From assembly GCF_001468465.1 (NCBI RefSeq), contig NZ_LNSA01000002.1, positions 62,001-126,000 on the forward strand: DNA of 64,000 nt, written 5' to 3'. Of this stretch, positions 1,687 through 6,986 are shown in pieces. The stretch's first letter is position 1. Each line of letters starts with the position of its first letter. The notes beneath the pieces were generated by a model. The model searched no databases. It had not been told where the DNA came from and worked only from the letters and a program-made list of their open reading frames with translations. The DNA is from Sphingopyxis sp. H115 (GTDB lineage Bacteria > Pseudomonadota > Alphaproteobacteria > Sphingomonadales > Sphingomonadaceae). The translations under genes were made by a program, and so were the position numbers.

Positions 1687-3072
1687 CTACAAACCAGCAT
1701 ACTTCAATAACTCATCGAAATGCTTGGCTACAGCTTCCGCAAGCTTAACGGGAACCGCGTTTCCAATTTGAGTGTACTTTGGCACCTCTCGTTCAAAGTT
1801 CCCCTCGCGTGGATTACCGGCACGTCGCAAGCCACCTGTCGTTCGCTTGCCCTTAAAGACATAGGTGTCAGGAAATGTTTGTAGACGCGCCCACTCTCGC
1901 ACCGTCAATGATCGGGGTTGCTGGTAGTGCACATAGTCATCAGCCAGCGAGCAGGCGGTGATTGTCGGCCCGTGATTGCTCCAACGACGAGGCAACACAC
2001 GCTGAGCGAACTTCTTTGTTTGGAACTCCGGCGGAATTCGGCCCCCATTAGCGATCATTGCAGCGAACTTCTGCACAACGTGCAATGAGTGCTTGCTATA
2101 TTCCTGCTCCTGCAATGGCGCCCGAGCTTGGGCTAGCTCGCCAGGGCGGAAATATTGTTGCCATTTCCCGATGGCCGGTCGGGGATAAGCGCTCGTAGAA
2201 AAATTCCCGCCAAATTCCTGATCGTGCAAACTTTTAAGAATCGTAGAATCTTCCAGATCAGAGAAGATATCCTCAAGGTGAGGTGCAATTTCGCCATGAG
2301 GCGGCAACATTCCACACGCGACGGCATCTTCCTCATGCGCAGCAAGCGAAAGCCGAGAACCCATCTTGTCTACAATGTCAGAACGAATGCCAACTATTAA
2401 GACACGCGGTCGATTTTGAGGGACGCCATAGTCCTTCGCGTGAACCAATTTCCAGCGCACGACATACCCGTGCTCAAGACCGAGGCGCTTAAAACGTCCA
2501 TAGACGTCACGCCAAATCTCTCCCTTTGTTCCTTCGGCGGTCCATCGAGAGGACAACAGACCTCTAACATTTTCAAAAAGAAATATTCGTGGCCGTATTT
2601 GCTCGATTACGAAAGCCATTCGTTCGTAAAGTCGATTTGACGGCAGTTCGGCCTTGTCCACAGAATATGAGCGCCGATGCCCGATGCCCGAATAACCTTG
2701 ACATGGCGGTCCGCCAGCCAGCACGTCCAAATTGCTGCTTCCCCCAAAATTCAAACCCAGGTTCAAACCTTCTAGGCGCAGCTTGAGGGCCGAAATTCTA
2801 TCGCCGTCCAGTTCATGAATATCGGCCGAATGCAGATCGGTTCGCTGATTAAAAGGTATTCCAGCGATGAGATGGTCGCGGTTCGCAAGATATGTTGATC
2901 GCGCATCTGCGTTCAATTCATTCACGAAAACAGGGGTGAACCCAGCTTGCTCAAATCCGAGCGACAACCCGCCACACCCCGCAAACAGGTCGATCATCGG
3001 CCGGTGCACCTTGACGATCGCCTCGACGGGGCTTTCATCGATCCTTAATGCGGGAGTTCGCTCAAGCAGCAT
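1687..3072 (-). CDS. DNA (cytosine-5-)-methyltransferase, type II modification enzyme
   Basis: This enzyme transfers a methyl group from S-adenosylmethionine to C5 of a target cytosine. At 461 residues it has the ordered motifs of the m5C family. Motif I is DLFAGCGGLSLGFEQAGF near residue 28, motif IV is GGPPCQGYS with the catalytic cysteine near residue 122, and motif VI is FLFENVRG. Motif VIII is PQNRPRVLIVG and motif X is QIGNAVPVKLAEAVAKHF near the end. The variable region between motifs VIII and IX should be the target recognition domain; its site cannot be read from sequence. The ATG at 3072 has GGAG eight bases upstream. It sits between a candidate endonuclease upstream and vsr downstream on the same strand, so it is probably the protective half of a restriction-modification system. 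Confidence 0.95.
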   Translation of the reverse strand: MLLERTPALRIDESPVEAIVKVHRPMIDLFAGCGGLSLGFEQAGFTPVFVNELNADARSTYLANRDHLIAGIPFNQRTDLHSADIHELDGDRISALKLRLEGLNLGLNFGGSSNLDVLAGGPPCQGYSGIGHRRSYSVDKAELPSNRLYERMAFVIEQIRPRIFLFENVRGLLSSRWTAEGTKGEIWRDVYGRFKRLGLEHGYVVRWKLVHAKDYGVPQNRPRVLIVGIRSDIVDKMGSRLSLAAHEEDAVACGMLPPHGEIAPHLEDIFSDLEDSTILKSLHDQEFGGNFSTSAYPRPAIGKWQQYFRPGELAQARAPLQEQEYSKHSLHVVQKFAAMIANGGRIPPEFQTKKFAQRVLPRRWSNHGPTITACSLADDYVHYQQPRSLTVREWARLQTFPDTYVFKGKRTTGGLRRAGNPREGNFEREVPKYTQIGNAVPVKLAEAVAKHFDELLKYAGL

Positions 3073-3131: not shown

Positions 3132-3989
3132 CTAGGGCACTGAAATGGAAATTGATCCATTCTTGATTTGGTTGTCGATATGACCCCGAATGCCACCATC
3201 GAACGCCGACTTGAACACTCGCTTGAAGATTTCCGAAAGGCTTTCCGCGACACCAGCCTGACTCGAACGACCCCAATAGTTCCCGCCAGAAAGCGATTCC
3301 ACGCGGCGAACAGCCATCGAATTTGGCTTTATCGGTTTTGACTGAGTTGGCACCGTCACAAACGAGTAGGTAAAATCTGCCAAATCATCCAAATCAACGC
3401 CCGAGACGCCAATCCTTACGCTATGCTTCTTCACGCCTCTAAACTGGTAAATCATGTCCCAAAGCATTGGAATCTGCGCGTTATCGTTCCAATTAGTCTT
3501 ACATTGTATATTGTGAAGAGAAATATCTGATATATTATTTTCAATAAAAGAATTCAATATAGATGTATCATAAACATCAGATATATCTCGAATTTTTTGT
3601 GGAAATATTATTCCCGAAAGATCTGATTCGGTATTTGTCGGCACATTTTTATAAGTCACAGTCATGGCATCCGACAGAGTTTTTGGGATCAAACTTTTGC
3701 TTTGCTTCACCACGACAGCTCGGGATCCGGTCATCACGAGATTCAGATACCAGCAAACCAGGCCTTCCCACGCGGCTCCGCCGCCCGAAAGTGACCCCTG
3801 ATCGCGCCCAGCGCCGCCCGTCATCTTGAAAACGTCACTTAGATGATCCCCAAGTTCGTAAACCTTGCCTGCATCAGTCAGGTTGTCGGTCAATTCTGCA
3901 ATCGCAGGCCTCCATGTCCGCCAAGAAGTCGAAAAACTCGACATGGCAAAAACGGAATTCATTGCTCTCGCCCTTAGGTCTTCGATCAT
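3132..3989 (-). CDS. Candidate type II restriction endonuclease partner of the adjacent methyltransferase
   Basis: This 285-residue protein is not recognised with certainty. Its position first in a tight three-gene run with a cytosine-5 methyltransferase (59-base gap) and vsr suggests it is the cognate restriction enzyme. A supporting feature is the segment ISLHNIQCKTNWNDNAQIP at about two thirds of the length. It contains a Q-x-K triad preceded by acidic residues, compatible with a degenerate PD-(D/E)xK nuclease core. The central region is strongly AT-rich at the DNA level, unlike all surrounding genes, which suggests recent transfer. The ATG at 3989 is preferred over the GTG at 3995 because GGAG lies five bases before it. 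The alternative is an unrelated island passenger. Confidence 0.6.
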   Translation of the reverse strand: MIEDLRARAMNSVFAMSSFSTSWRTWRPAIAELTDNLTDAGKVYELGDHLSDVFKMTGGAGRDQGSLSGGGAAWEGLVCWYLNLVMTGSRAVVVKQSKSLIPKTLSDAMTVTYKNVPTNTESDLSGIIFPQKIRDISDVYDTSILNSFIENNISDISLHNIQCKTNWNDNAQIPMLWDMIYQFRGVKKHSVRIGVSGVDLDDLADFTYSFVTVPTQSKPIKPNSMAVRRVESLSGGNYWGRSSQAGVAESLSEIFKRVFKSAFDGGIRGHIDNQIKNGSISISVP

Positions 3990-4285
3990 GCGCACTCCAT
4001 GCCCCTTAATGCAGCGGAACCATAGACGAGTTCACCAAGGTAATCGAGGCCTCAGAACGTCAGCGACGCGATACGAATAGATCGAGGGCGCCAAGCGTGT
4101 GCTTCCGATATCCCTTCTCAGACGCCGGGTGCCCAAAGGTACGCCACTCTGGACAGGCGGCGTGAAGGGTCATGCTTAATCCTGTGGCATGACGTCGGCG
4201 GTGCTATGGATCCCAGATCAAGTTCGGGATGACAAAGTTGGGGCAGGTTTGTCTGCTTTACATGCCGAAGGCGCGAGATCGGCTA
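3990..4285. other. Right edge of the restriction-modification island, no gene seen
   Basis: About 296 bases contain no supported gene. The promoter for the island operon must lie in the left part. Near 4207-4233 there is a short imperfect palindrome, GGATCCC...TCGGGATGAC, of the same type as the dispersed palindromic repeats elsewhere in this window. It could mark the junction between acquired and resident DNA. No integrase or tRNA is present. Confidence 0.5.
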
Positions 4286-5191
4286 TCATGCGCGGAGGCC
4301 CAGCCACCTCTCACAATCATCCCTGACCCGCGCGTCCGCGTCGCGCATCCCGCGCTCCAGCACCGCCGCCCTGCCCGCGCCTTCCTCTACCGCCGCCAGC
4401 GCGGCGATGGCGTTGGCACGGACGCGGGGGACAGGATGCGCTTTCGCGAAATGGTCGGCCACGTCCCGGCCGTTTTCCGTCAGATGCACCGCGCAGCGGA
4501 GCAGCATTTCGCCGCTGGTCAGCGTCGGGCGCCTGGCGATCGTGCCGCGCTTGTCCGCTTCTTGGCCGAGATCGACGATATATTGGTCGCGCCAAGGGAC
4601 ATGCTCGCCCTCGTCCATGATGTTGAGGCTGACCGACAGGCTTTCGGGGGGGAGCTGGCTGTGGATGTCGCGGTGGGCGCGGTAGAGCATTAGCTTGCCC
4701 TCGCTCAGGCTGCTGCGCTCGACGAATTTGAGGTTCAGCGGCTCGTCGAGGCGGCCGTCAACCGCTTCGGGGTCATAGTCATAATAGTCGCTGATATAGC
4801 CGGGGCCGAAATAGCCGGCGGTGAGGAAATGGAAATTATGGTCGTGCGGCACGCCGTAGGAGAAGGCGGCGGAGCCGCTCGCGGCATAGACGGCGTCGGT
4901 CGCGGCGGGCCAGAGGTTGGCGCGGAGGTAATAGCCGCGCGGGCTGCGGTGCAGGAGGAAGACCTGCGCCGAATAGCGGTTGATTTCGAGCTGGTCGGCG
5001 TAGCTCGCCTTGAGCGCCGCGACGACGCGGTCGGCAAGAAAGTCGCGGTTGCGCCGCAGACCGGCGAGCAGCGCGGCGCAATGCGCGATGCTGCCTTCGT
5101 CCGCGAGGTCGACGCCGCTTTCGTCGAGGCGCGCGACGACTTCGGCAAGGTCGAGCGCGGGGGTGCCCGGCGGGTCGATCAGGCGCGGCAC
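4286..5191 (-). CDS. Cupin-like putative metalloenzyme with HEAT-like C-terminus, unknown function
   Basis: A 301-residue protein not assigned to a named family. The middle has a histidine cluster, GVPHDHNFHFLTAGYFGPGY near residues 112-131. A second block, RAHRDIHSQLPPESLSVSLN, follows near residues 171-190. The spacing and the H-x-H then H...N layout resemble the two metal-binding motifs of cupin-type oxygenases, but the usual glutamate is not obvious. After about residue 225 come helical repeats with the D-x-x-x-R-V-R spacing of HEAT repeats, for example ADARVRDDCERWLG. The likely start is the GTG at 5191, overlapping the upstream HEAT gene by 13 bases with GAGG upstream; a TTG at 5242 is the alternative. 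It is the last gene of a three-gene operon. An oxidative tailoring enzyme is one guess; no substrate can be named. Confidence 0.75.
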   Translation of the reverse strand: MPRLIDPPGTPALDLAEVVARLDESGVDLADEGSIAHCAALLAGLRRNRDFLADRVVAALKASYADQLEINRYSAQVFLLHRSPRGYYLRANLWPAATDAVYAASGSAAFSYGVPHDHNFHFLTAGYFGPGYISDYYDYDPEAVDGRLDEPLNLKFVERSSLSEGKLMLYRAHRDIHSQLPPESLSVSLNIMDEGEHVPWRDQYIVDLGQEADKRGTIARRPTLTSGEMLLRCAVHLTENGRDVADHFAKAHPVPRVRANAIAALAAVEEGAGRAAVLERGMRDADARVRDDCERWLGLRA

Positions 5192-5691
5192 GGCTGCGCA
5201 TCCTCGCGGCGACAAGGGGCGGAGGGCGCAGGGCTTGTGCAAGGCCCCGGCCCTCCGCCCCCCTTCCGCCCCGTCTCACCGGAAGGCGGAAAGAGCGCCA
5301 GCGTCGCCACCGCCGCGCGGCGCACCTCGGGATGCGGATCGCCCGCGGCCATCGCGGCGAGCAAGCGATGCGCGGCGGCGGAATCGAGCGCGACCAGTTC
5401 GCGCATCGCGTGCCAGCGCGCGGCGAAATCGCCGGCCTGCGTCTCGGCCGCGAACAGCGGCGCGGCGTCGGTACGGCCAAGCTGGCGGAGCAGCGTCAGC
5501 GCCATCGCGCGAAAGCTGCTGTCGCGGCGCGAGGCGCTGACATGGATGAGGCGGCCGCTCGCCGCGTCATAGCTGCGGATCGGCAGCGGCGAGGGCGGCT
5601 GGACGGCGAGTTCGAGCAGCAACACGTCGGCGCGCGCGGCGGCGAGCGTGAAGCCCTGGCGCGCGGTGTCGAGGTGCAGGATCGCGCTCAT
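5179..5691 (-). CDS. Small HEAT-like repeat protein, unknown function
   Basis: A predicted 170-residue cytoplasmic protein. The N-terminal 50 residues are not recognised. From about residue 55 there are helical repeats typical of HEAT scaffolds, such as SSFRAMALTLLRQLG, ARWHAMRELVALD and DPHPEVRRAAVATLAL. The last 35 or so residues are rich in Gly, Pro and Cys and look less conserved; a frameshift near the G-rich tract at 5258-5275 is possible. The ATG at 5691 is chosen; a TTG at 5697 is in frame. The start lies inside one arm of a perfect 31-bp inverted repeat, and no clear Shine-Dalgarno site precedes it. Translation may therefore depend on ribosomes finishing the upstream peptide gene 30 bases away. 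Confidence 0.72.
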   Translation of the reverse strand: MSAILHLDTARQGFTLAAARADVLLLELAVQPPSPLPIRSYDAASGRLIHVSASRRDSSFRAMALTLLRQLGRTDAAPLFAAETQAGDFAARWHAMRELVALDSAAAHRLLAAMAAGDPHPEVRRAAVATLALFPPSGETGRKGGGGPGPCTSPAPSAPCRREDAQPCRA

Positions 5692-5745
5692 CGTCAACGA
5701 CTGACCCGCCGCCGCGGCGGGTCAGTCGTTGACGATGAGCGCGAT
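5681..5745. repeat. Perfect 31-bp inverted repeat joining the peptide gene and the HEAT gene
   Basis: The left arm 5681-5711 and right arm 5715-5745 are exact reverse complements with a 3-base centre. In the minus-strand transcript the repeat contains the last codons and TGA (5722-5724) of the 48-residue peptide gene and the ATG (5691) of the next gene. The RNA hairpin would be very stable and would hide the second start. It has no T-run, so a simple terminator is less likely than attenuation or RNA processing. Confidence 0.9.
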
Positions 5746-5868
5746 GGTGACCGCGATCTCGAACACCGACGGTCCCGACGACGCGCTGTCGCCGATCAGC
5801 GACCCGAACAGCCCGACCGCGGTTTCCAGCAGCGGCACGCTGTCGATATCGATCGATGGCAATTCCAT
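5722..5868 (-). CDS. 48-residue peptide gene, first gene of an orphan operon
   Basis: This is a short gene supported by a near-ideal ribosome site (AGGAGG, six bases before the ATG at 5868), by its place at the head of a three-gene operon, and by composition. The product starts MELPSIDIDSVPLLETAVGL, continues with FGSLIGDSASSGPSV, and ends FEIAVTIALIVND. The first 20 residues are acidic. The next part could form an amphipathic helix around GLFGSLIG, and the C-terminus is hydrophobic. There are no cysteines and no basic residues. It could be a precursor peptide modified by the two downstream proteins, a small membrane-active peptide, or a regulatory leader peptide. It resembles no family I can name. 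Its last nine codons lie inside the 31-bp inverted repeat. Confidence 0.75.
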   Translation of the reverse strand: MELPSIDIDSVPLLETAVGLFGSLIGDSASSGPSVFEIAVTIALIVND

Positions 5869-5874
5869 AGTCCC

Positions 5875-5880
5875 CCTCCT
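5875..5880 (-). promoter_or_regulatory. Consensus Shine-Dalgarno site of the 48-residue peptide gene
   Basis: AGGAGG on the minus strand lies six bases before the ATG at 5868. It is among the strongest ribosome sites in the window and is the main reason for accepting the short gene. The downstream HEAT gene has no comparable site, which suggests much higher output of the peptide than of its neighbours. Confidence 0.8.
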
Positions 5881-6038
5881 CCGTCGCTCTGCGGCCCCGG
5901 GCCGCCCGACCGGGGTAAGGGGACCCTCCGCAATCGCCGAGTTAACTTATCGTAATGGCGCGCCCGTCACTCGTCGAAGCGCGGTTGCGGGGCGCGCGCC
6001 GCGGGATAGGATGGGCGGCCGTAACCGGGAGACCCGCC

Positions 6039-6986
6039 ATGCACCGTGCCGCCGCCCTCGCCATCCTGCTTCTGACTGCGCCCGCCGCGGCGGCCGAAAC
6101 GCTGCTGGTCGGCAACAAGGCCGAAGATACGCTGAGCATCATATCGCTAGCGACGGGACGCGAGCTGGCGCGGCTGCCGACGGGGAAGATGCCGCACGAA
6201 ATCGCGATTTCGCCCGACGGCAAACAGGCGGCGGTCGTGGCCTATGGTGGGACGACGATCGATGTGTTCGACATCGCGAAGCGGACGAAATTGCGCACGA
6301 TCGACCTGAGCCCCAACCGGCGGCCGCACGGGTTGCTGTGGCTTGGCGACGGGCGACTGGTTGCTACGACCGAGGGCAGCGAGTCGGTCGCAGTGGTCGC
6401 GCCGGACGGCGCACTGACTTCGATTCCGACCGGGCAGAAGGGGACGCACATGATCGTCGTCGCACCCGACGGCCGCACCGCCTATACCACCAATATCGGG
6501 TCGGGGACGGTGAGCGTGCTCGACCTGAATGCGGGCGCGAAGCTGCGCGACCTGACCGTCGGCGGCAAGCCCGAGGGGCTGGCGCTGACCAAGGGCGGGC
6601 GCGAGCTGTGGGTGGGCGACCTCGACGCGCCGCGCGTATCGGTGTGGGATACCGCGACGGGCGAGAAAATCGCCGAACGGCCGGTCGACCCGGTCGCGAT
6701 CCGCGTGCTGGCGAGCCCCGACGGCAAGCTGGTCGCGACCAGCAATATCGCGTCGGGAACGATCAGCCTGTTCGATGCCGAGACGCGCGCGCCGCTGAAG
6801 ACGATCACCGTGTCGGGCGAGCAGGCGAAAGGACAGGTAACCTTGCTGTTCAGCGCCGATTCGACGCGAATCTATGCCGCCGAGACGGGTCACGACAAGG
6901 TCGCCGAAATCGATGTCGCGAGCGGGCAGGTGCTGCGGCGGATCGCGGCGGGGAAAAATGGCGACGGGCTGGCGATCGCGCCGTAA
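6039..6986 (+). CDS. Secreted YVTN-type beta-propeller protein
   Basis: A 315-residue periplasmic or secreted protein of the 40-residue YVTN repeat family (YncE-like). The start at 6039 (after GGGAGA) gives a clean signal peptide, AILLLTAPAAAAETLLVGNK, cut near residue 20. Repeated blades are visible: LVGNKAEDTLSIISLATG, TIDVFDIAKRTKLRTIDL, VAVVAPDGALTSIP, TTNIGSGTVSVLDLNAG, RVSVWDTATGEKIAERPV and TISLFDAETRAPLKTITV. Such propellers commonly bind ligands or partners; the partner here is unknown. An open frame continues upstream to 5955 but would bury the signal peptide, so the shorter form is preferred. It is transcribed divergently from the peptide operon. Confidence 0.88.
   Translation: MHRAAALAILLLTAPAAAAETLLVGNKAEDTLSIISLATGRELARLPTGKMPHEIAISPDGKQAAVVAYGGTTIDVFDIAKRTKLRTIDLSPNRRPHGLLWLGDGRLVATTEGSESVAVVAPDGALTSIPTGQKGTHMIVVAPDGRTAYTTNIGSGTVSVLDLNAGAKLRDLTVGGKPEGLALTKGGRELWVGDLDAPRVSVWDTATGEKIAERPVDPVAIRVLASPDGKLVATSNIASGTISLFDAETRAPLKTITVSGEQAKGQVTLLFSADSTRIYAAETGHDKVAEIDVASGQVLRRIAAGKNGDGLAIAP

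Follow-up and report, generated by a model that had tools for sequence, protein, structure and literature searches.

In the thiol dioxygenases, which share a cupin fold, the Ser-His-Tyr motif is conserved in the enzymes that act on small molecules, and X-Asp-Leu is found in ADO and PCO (available part of PMC10966181). PbsQ, a cupin/JmjC-like hydroxylase of ribosomally synthesized and post-translationally modified peptides (RiPP) from biphenomycin-like pathways, has a JmjC-domain protein as a relative and acts alongside MNIO and radical-SAM enzymes (excerpt of PMC12257519). In the Acinetobacter microcin locus mcaABCD, a small peptide, a cupin-like protein, a HlyD protein and an ABC exporter (SunT) are encoded in one cluster (excerpt of PMC10333792). 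The locus described here lies on the minus strand of a 64,000-nt stretch of Sphingopyxis sp. H115 (contig NZ_LNSA01000002.1, positions 62,001 to 126,000), which is called the window. It comprises the genes of a short peptide (A), a middle protein (B) and a cupin-HEAT protein (C).

With moderate confidence, the locus is considered a damaged member of an apparently undescribed, RiPP-like peptide-maturation system of three genes, in which A is the precursor, B a degenerate partner and C a cupin with three histidines. The basis of this reading is the trio itself, its motifs, the predicted folds, the conserved ligands and the exporter neighbors seen in some clusters. Maturation is favored because the peptide is precursor-like, the metal site is near-invariant within a fold that peptide-oxidizing enzymes also have, the HEAT partner is degenerate, divergent peptides occur in tandem and exporters are found as neighbors.

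Organization of the locus

The first-pass annotation of this DNA described the gene of a 48-residue peptide, with AGGAGG six bases from the ATG, at the head of an operon with two further proteins. The peptide frame (48 codons, 5722-5868, minus strand), its ribosome site and two further minus-strand open reading frames (ORF) are borne out. The features are the following:

5722..5868, minus strand: peptide gene (A), intact, 48 residues, MELPSIDIDSVPLLET...VFEIAVTIALIVND; conserved in relatives, ratio of nonsynonymous to synonymous substitution rates (dN/dS) 0.31
5875-5880, minus strand: ribosome site AGGAGG, 6 bases ahead of the peptide ATG
5681..5745, no strand: perfect palindrome of 65 bp (32+1+32), in which the inverted 3' end of the peptide gene is joined to the middle-gene remnant; site of the deletion of ~0.6 kb
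5179..5691, minus strand: 3' remnant of the middle gene (degenerate cupin/HEAT partner, B), from the comparison with relatives
4286..5191, minus strand: cupin-HEAT protein (C), 301 residues, GTG start; from Pfam, alignment and model
4844-4846, 4838-4840 and 4661-4663: predicted metal ligands H116, H118 and H177 of C, respectively
4622-4624, minus strand: residue N190 of C
from about residue 227 of C: HEAT tail
5955..6986, plus strand: YncE-like beta-propeller gene, divergent to the trio, from Pfam

Distribution and conservation of the trio

A profile of C, built from 33 alignment rows, detects the gene in 144 of the 396 order genomes; all those listed belong to Sphingomonadaceae, and most have a single copy. 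It also matches 6 of 385 genomes of the class (two outside the window's family, one of these marginal) and 15 of 398 genomes of the phylum (two outside this family). Two other families of the phylum contribute 9 of 246 and 13 of 247 genomes. The named carriers outside Sphingomonadales are two Alteromonas and Pleionea; a weak homologue was seen in G119 (E 2e-14) and a marginal match in G402.

The 166 cupin-gene instances collected reduce to 143 distinct ones after removal of duplicates. From these, 121 have at least 1700 nt upstream, and the 22 genes with less than 1700 nt before a contig end or the stretch limit were left out. The middle gene is placed next to the cupin gene in 117 of the 121. 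The peptide is matched upstream at E≤1e-5 in 109, weakly in 4 and not in the remaining 8, so that a short precursor-type gene stands beside the gene of a putative enzyme across many genomes, as in RiPP clusters. Control regions taken from the opposite strand and from downstream (226 regions, 5660 ORFs) yielded five peptide matches, of which one reached 3.5e-6 and the others 0.2-0.4; every one of them lies in the second tandem set of L075. Among the eight loci without a match, five (L047, L050, L160, L168 and L169) have in the same place a short ORF that has a hydrophobic end and is preceded by a plausible ribosome site; L048 represents a fragment. The co-occurrence of the three genes, suggested as a check in the first-pass annotation, is thus observed; the peptide frame, whose loss in relatives would speak against a joint system, is conserved together with the other two genes. 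The intact trio is a genuine and apparently undescribed family.

A Sphingobium cupin gene (L049, 5064-6666) is apparently cut at its 5' end and adjoins ORFs that we take to resemble transposases.

The peptide

The comparison of 121 distinct peptides reveals the N-terminal block (L)P-x-I-D-(I/L)-x-x-L-P-x-L-D-T-x-x-G-x-F-G-(S/A), in short LPxIDxxxLPxLxTxxGxFGS. After it come a linker that varies, D-(D/E), a stretch of about eight hydrophobic residues, Y-(E/D) and a tail that varies as well. The peptides are acidic, with a mean net charge of -5, and their C-terminal part is hydrophobic. K, N, D, E and G predominate at position 2, where Cys is rare, and a Cys is placed within the last 25 residues in 12 of the 121. 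The Sphingopyxis peptide is under purifying selection (dN/dS of 0.31 calculated with our own script from 19 sequences, including that of the window), and scans of Pfam, NCBIfam and PHROGs assign no family to it. A conserved N-terminus with a variable C-terminus had been anticipated for such a peptide: the N-terminal motif is indeed conserved, but the C-terminus is not simply hypervariable.

Two variants depart from the main family. A subgroup (L154, L157, L116, L117, L040 and L132) contains EV(G/A)GxxC in the C-terminal half, and genes of an extracytoplasmic function (ECF) sigma factor and of a response regulator lie near L117. In L078, L079, L165 and L166 the peptide has a DDN[HYV] block.

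The cupin protein

The AlphaFold model of C, obtained from the 33-row alignment, has a mean predicted local distance difference test (pLDDT) score of 90. The best solved matches of this model in Foldseek are thiol dioxygenases (E 1e-7). With VIA-align, residues 11-223 superpose on 4tlf with Z 13.5 and a root-mean-square deviation of 3.2 over 162 aligned residues, and CDO, PCO, ADO and ergothioneine dioxygenase give Z values of 10.6-13.4. The search of the C sequence against solved structures returned nothing meaningful. The model indicates that C is built on the thiol-dioxygenase scaffold, with a cupin fold of that type. The resemblance of the last protein to a cupin, proposed earlier from its histidines, therefore holds: the modeled protein folds as a cupin and the histidines are near-invariant.

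These histidines, whose H-x-H and second block were noted in the first-pass annotation, are located at residues 116 and 118 and at residue 177. The residue counts were made on 161 distinct cores, reduced from 171 rows in which some genes appear twice. H116 and H118 are each conserved in 160 of the 161 and H177 in 159, and C contains other near-invariant pocket residues. The three histidines kept are of the iron-binding type, and metal binding is predicted from them. The near-invariance of this site and of the pocket suggests catalysis rather than binding. The exceptions to the histidine conservation are L078 and L079, whose peptides are also unusual; together with L165 and L166 they are perhaps a degenerate or neofunctionalized branch.

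C is not a member of the CDO family, because the Ser-His-Tyr motif and the CDO_I profile match are both missing. In a weak profile alignment with six CDO/MDO-type proteins from other genomes the histidines are in register, and S188-L-N190-I-M192 of C stands opposite Ser-x-His-x-Tyr. The six comparators are those kept, from 12 ORFs, by a filter requiring the motif, so the alignment cannot show the frequency of the motif among CDO/MDO. At the His position, mapped through this alignment, the 161 cores have Asn (157), Thr (3) or Ala (1), never His. The Tyr position is occupied by Met (111), Leu (26), Val (10), Ile (10), Cys (2), Ser (1) or Thr (1). The Pfam scan of the window's C at E≤1 gave HEAT families only and no CDO_I match.

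HEAT repeats had been proposed for both proteins. The proposal stands for the middle ORF, with HEAT_2 above the Pfam cut-off (E 3e-7), but in C the HEAT match is only below the threshold (E 0.03). In NCBIfam, the middle ORF has weak HEAT-type matches far under the cut-off, and the scan of C gave no match.

The intact middle protein

The intact B protein was modeled from the L009 sequence with 15 alignment rows (pLDDT 81). The model contains N-terminal helices, a beta barrel and HEAT helices, in the same order as C. Among solved structures it matches various cupins, the highest Z being 10.4; these include thiol dioxygenases with 9.0-9.2, a range in which chance matches also occur. The profile match between B and C is collinear and weak (probability 26%, E 7e-4), and the aligned rows contain no conserved H-x-H in the barrel of B. 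Thus, B is likely a degenerate cupin-HEAT paralogue. In the seven Sphingopyxis-type full rows an H-x-H occurs at residues 5-10, ahead of the folded part, and the other seven full rows are without it. The corresponding N-terminal RH[DE]H[FY]P is conserved in L009, L010, L012, L017, L021, L024 and L030, and possibly constitutes a metal or cofactor tail.

The broken middle gene of the window

A scan of a GTDB-derived collection provided 42 related loci, mostly from Sphingopyxis; by tblastn (E<0.01), 31 of them contain the peptide and 35 the middle ORF. In the nearest relative, Sphingopyxis sp. JAI128 (L009), the stretch that matches the middle ORF begins 620 nt below the peptide, compared with ~25 nt in the window. 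Its middle gene is a single frame of 357 residues (4940 to 6013), and the window's ORF, called at 5179-5697 on the minus strand with its end overlapping the C gene by 13 nt, is the C-terminal part of it. About the first 185 of the 357 residues have no counterpart in the window. The other relatives have the L009 layout, with the matched part ~0.6 kb below the peptide, and the gap corresponds to the first half of the middle gene; the 14 full-length rows of the alignment measure 258-358 residues. A DNA search of the window's genome assembly with the L009 region matched the flanks, but positions 193-805 of the query (613 nt) were found nowhere in it. The profile of the whole middle protein matched the second half only, once, in this genome.

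Accordingly, the interpretation of the middle ORF as a complete HEAT protein was rejected, since the missing half is present in relatives. The earlier description of a HEAT-like middle gene was correct about the HEAT match, which is real; the ORF, on the other hand, is a truncated remnant of what is likely a degenerate cupin with a HEAT tail. The tight spacing between peptide and middle gene, previously read as part of the operon, does not hold: it is an effect of the deletion, and relatives have ~0.6 kb of gene in this place.

The apparent start codon of the middle ORF falls within the palindrome. At the joint, the inverted end of the peptide gene runs into the remnant, and GCGCGAT is common to the window and the relative's sequence. 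The joint was searched in 80 genomes of the genus, of which 66 gave some match, in part just short and chance-like. Among the matches listed, only the window's own spans the joint, and the next best covers 164 of 309 bases. A conserved attenuator or terminator between the peptide and the enzymes was therefore rejected as an explanation of the palindrome, no other genome of the genus having it among those matches. The palindrome at 5681-5745 is the sole one with arms of at least 20 in the window, and in 1.29 Mb of related loci one other reaches this length (L032, arm 22).

The joint fits a fold-back template switch followed by a second jump, as well as a chimera in the 63-contig draft. If the latter applies, the palindrome and the missing 0.6 kb arose through chimerism in the assembly or the library, and the operon of the strain is in fact intact. 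We consider this artefact a real, if somewhat doubtful, possibility. It agrees with the draft state of the genome, in 63 contigs, and with the confinement of the joint to the window among the matches listed; fold-back joints are known as library artefacts. Against it stand the microhomology GCGCGAT at the junction and the fold-back at a short inverted repeat that already exists in the relative, since template-switch deletions show microhomology and fold-back at inverted repeats. The singularity of this palindrome within the window also argues against it. Should the deletion be real, this copy of the system is probably inactive: B is without its first half, so, barring an assembly error, the pathway is probably off in this strain. 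The case is a warning that a gene neighborhood interpreted from a single draft genome can reflect a deletion private to that genome.

Exporter neighbors, tandem peptides and alternative roles

In the window's family, L178 contains two tandem sets; behind them, with gene ends that overlap or almost do, come genes of the HlyD type, of an ABC ATPase, of two permeases of the MacB/FtsX type and of an ABC exporter. An ECF sigma factor is placed upstream. In other lineages, Alteromonas lipotrueiana (L047) has an ABC ATPase and a MacB permease after the trio. In the plasmid of Alteromonas stellipolaris (L198) HlyD, ABC ATPase and MacB permease genes precede the trio, and those of an ABC ATPase and an ABC-2 permease follow it. 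Pleionea (L050) has an ABC ATPase and a second ORF after C; this ORF has no Pfam match at E≤0.001 and is treated as a permease by its place alone. Exporter or ABC genes are found close by in 11 of the 26 clusters examined for them (L223 and L224 counted as one; L235 partly on the other strand), as counted by Pfam names and without a random-position control. Four of the 11 supplied the seeds of the transporter search, which leaves an independent count of 7 of 22. The richest cluster seen is L223/L224 (G1309:C1:336000-370000), with HlyD, ABC and MacB genes and three sets of C and middle genes within ~15 kb.

Peptides with the N-terminal motif occur in tandem, three in L232 and two in L233, and L198 has two in which the motif is weak. 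As the locus script kept only the best peptide per locus, these tandem peptides are a lower bound. Their C-termini are of two types, one with GxCxxxG/GxxxG patterns, and those of the GxxxG type recall two-peptide bacteriocins.

Two other roles of the trio have to be weighed at this point. The peptide could be an unmodified toxic or membrane-active, bacteriocin-like product, with B and C as immunity proteins or as chaperones that sequester the hydrophobic peptide in the producer. A precedent is the microcin locus of Acinetobacter, which also encodes HlyD and a PCAT transporter and whose cupin-like protein was sufficient for immunity (excerpt of PMC10333792). The acidic peptides with hydrophobic C-termini are in line with this role, as is the presence, behind the trio of L198 and L050, of an ABC ATPase and a distinct permease-like ORF. 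Such an arrangement is used in self-protection. Nevertheless, we regard the immunity role as unlikely: the near-invariant three-histidine site and pocket residues suggest catalysis, and the trio is common in one family, mostly with no exporter seen beside it, although a secreted toxin would need one.

In the second role, the peptide would be a permanent third subunit or regulator of a B-C complex that acts on a small molecule or on another protein, within the cell and not secreted. The broad presence in the window's family (144 of 396 order genomes, mostly one copy), the beta-strand-like pattern kept in the C-terminal block of the peptide and the exporters beside the trio at L075 and L178 only, in this family, all point in this direction. 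However, in other lineages two to three divergent peptides precede one B-C pair, with exporters besides, and the C-termini of the tandem peptides diverge strongly. We thus hold a subunit role to be quite improbable.

Several observations weigh against the maturation reading, which we still prefer. The C-terminal block of the peptide, too, keeps its pattern throughout the main family: D[DE], then eight hydrophobic residues, then Y[DE]. A role of the peptide as a structural subunit would therefore be conceivable. The alignment of C with the CDO/MDO-type proteins is weak (probability 8%, P 0.004), and B may not be wholly without metal, because of its Sphingopyxis-type N-terminal H-x-H. No such exporter is found in 15 of the 26 clusters, three of which (L169, L228 and L229) have a weak HlyD-type match only. 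In the loci examined in the window's family, with downstream flanks often of only ~1.5 kb, exporters lie on the strand of the trio at L075 and L178 alone.

Proposed mechanism and meaning

The first-pass annotation proposed a peptide-modifying system. The conserved N-terminus, the tandem divergent peptides and the exporters of some clusters favor maturation; on the other hand, the middle gene is broken here. The B-C complex, the iron, the oxidation, the recognition, the export and the function are the parts of the maturation reading that we infer. The motif LPxIDxxxLPxLxTxxGxFGS of A would serve for recognition, with the HEAT tails or the N-terminal helices of a complex of B and C binding it. 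C would hold a mononuclear metal, probably Fe(II), through H116, H118 and H177, and would oxidize a residue in the hydrophobic C-terminal part of A. In some lineages the product may then be exported by MacAB/ABC pumps and act as a bacteriocin-like peptide, and in some the products may be two or three different peptides.

A broader proposal is put forward tentatively: the trio might represent a new class of ribosomal-peptide maturation, in which a three-histidine cupin similar to thiol dioxygenases but without Ser-His-Tyr, together with its own degenerate cupin-HEAT paralogue, oxidizes residues other than cysteine in a short hydrophobic peptide. A cell-associated form would be common in Sphingomonadaceae, and exported forms, some with two to three tandem peptides, would be scattered in other Pseudomonadota. 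If true, a thiol-oxidizing fold has been turned to peptides that are mostly without cysteine, aided by a degenerate HEAT-repeat partner, and the peptides are widespread yet unnamed, given the presence of the C gene in more than a third of the order genomes searched. Among the titles listed from open-licence literature none describes a peptide plus cupin-HEAT system, which is weak evidence of absence. The trio offers a profile for further searches and, with its three genes, a small cassette for tests in a heterologous host.

Neighboring genes and other candidates

The beta-propeller gene adjoins the trio in 23 of the 164 loci examined, the window's own counted, and the named loci with this neighbor are from Sphingopyxis, one Sphingomonadaceae isolate and two metagenome-assembled genomes. 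Since it is seen beside the trio in just these 23, it is probably not a part of the system. A defense system was also considered and rejected: PADLOC gave no match for C, and the remnant of B had a single weak match, to HEAT (E 0.004). The same applies to a phage or plasmid gene, with no match in PHROGs, one IMG/VR contig and one of 72,556 plasmid records. The IMG/VR contig, classed as viral (L197), carries a relative of the C gene (37% identity) at the contig end.

Elsewhere in the window, a C5-cytosine methyltransferase gene and an ORF without Pfam match adjoin each other (1687-3072 and 3132-3995). The short ORF at 1262-1678 resembles, in our assumption, a Vsr-type endonuclease, which would make this region a restriction-modification island next to the operon. 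The ORF directly after the cupin gene of L009 (7076-9925) differs from that of the window and is presumably methylase-like, judging by its motif.

Comparison with known systems

C resembles CDO and MDO (Pfam CDO_I, PF05995) in the cupin fold over residues 11-223 (Z 13.5 with 4tlf) and in the His-x-His and third His, which are in register. It differs from them in the HEAT tail, in the lack of a Pfam CDO_I match for the window's C, in Ser-Asn-(Met/Leu/Ile/Val) at the place of Ser-His-Tyr and in the location of its gene in an operon with a peptide gene. ADO and PCO have the same fold as C (Z 10.6-12.2) and act on peptides or proteins, and their X-Asp-Leu is near the Ser-Asn-(Met/Leu) of C (available part of PMC10966181). 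Unlike their substrates, the peptides of the family rarely begin with Met-Cys, and few have Cys in the last 25 residues (12 of 121). The N-terminal Cys of ADO/PCO substrates is thus rare here, a comparison that is valid only on condition that the linked peptide serves as the substrate without prior trimming.

The proposed role of C is similar to that of PbsQ, a cupin-like oxygenase acting on a ribosomal peptide (excerpt of PMC12257519). In contrast to the PbsQ pathways, no MNIO or radical-SAM genes occur among the 19 neighbor proteins scanned with Pfam. General Pfam, NCBIfam and PHROGs scans of B and C, which included no dedicated search for RiPP recognition elements, detected neither such an element nor a known RiPP enzyme domain, only HEAT-type or weak sub-threshold matches.

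The clusters with exporters share with mcaABCD the small peptide, the cupin-like protein, HlyD and an ABC exporter. They differ in that mcaABCD has a single cupin-like gene, shown to encode the immunity protein, and a PCAT instead of MacB (excerpt of PMC10333792); the likeness between McaB and C is by description. No C39 peptidase domain was detected among the transporter proteins scanned with Pfam. The tandem peptides of L232, L233 and L198, with hydrophobic C-termini and in some cases GxxxG, are similar to the two-peptide (class IIb-like) bacteriocins. Unlike these, the trio clusters also carry the B and C proteins.

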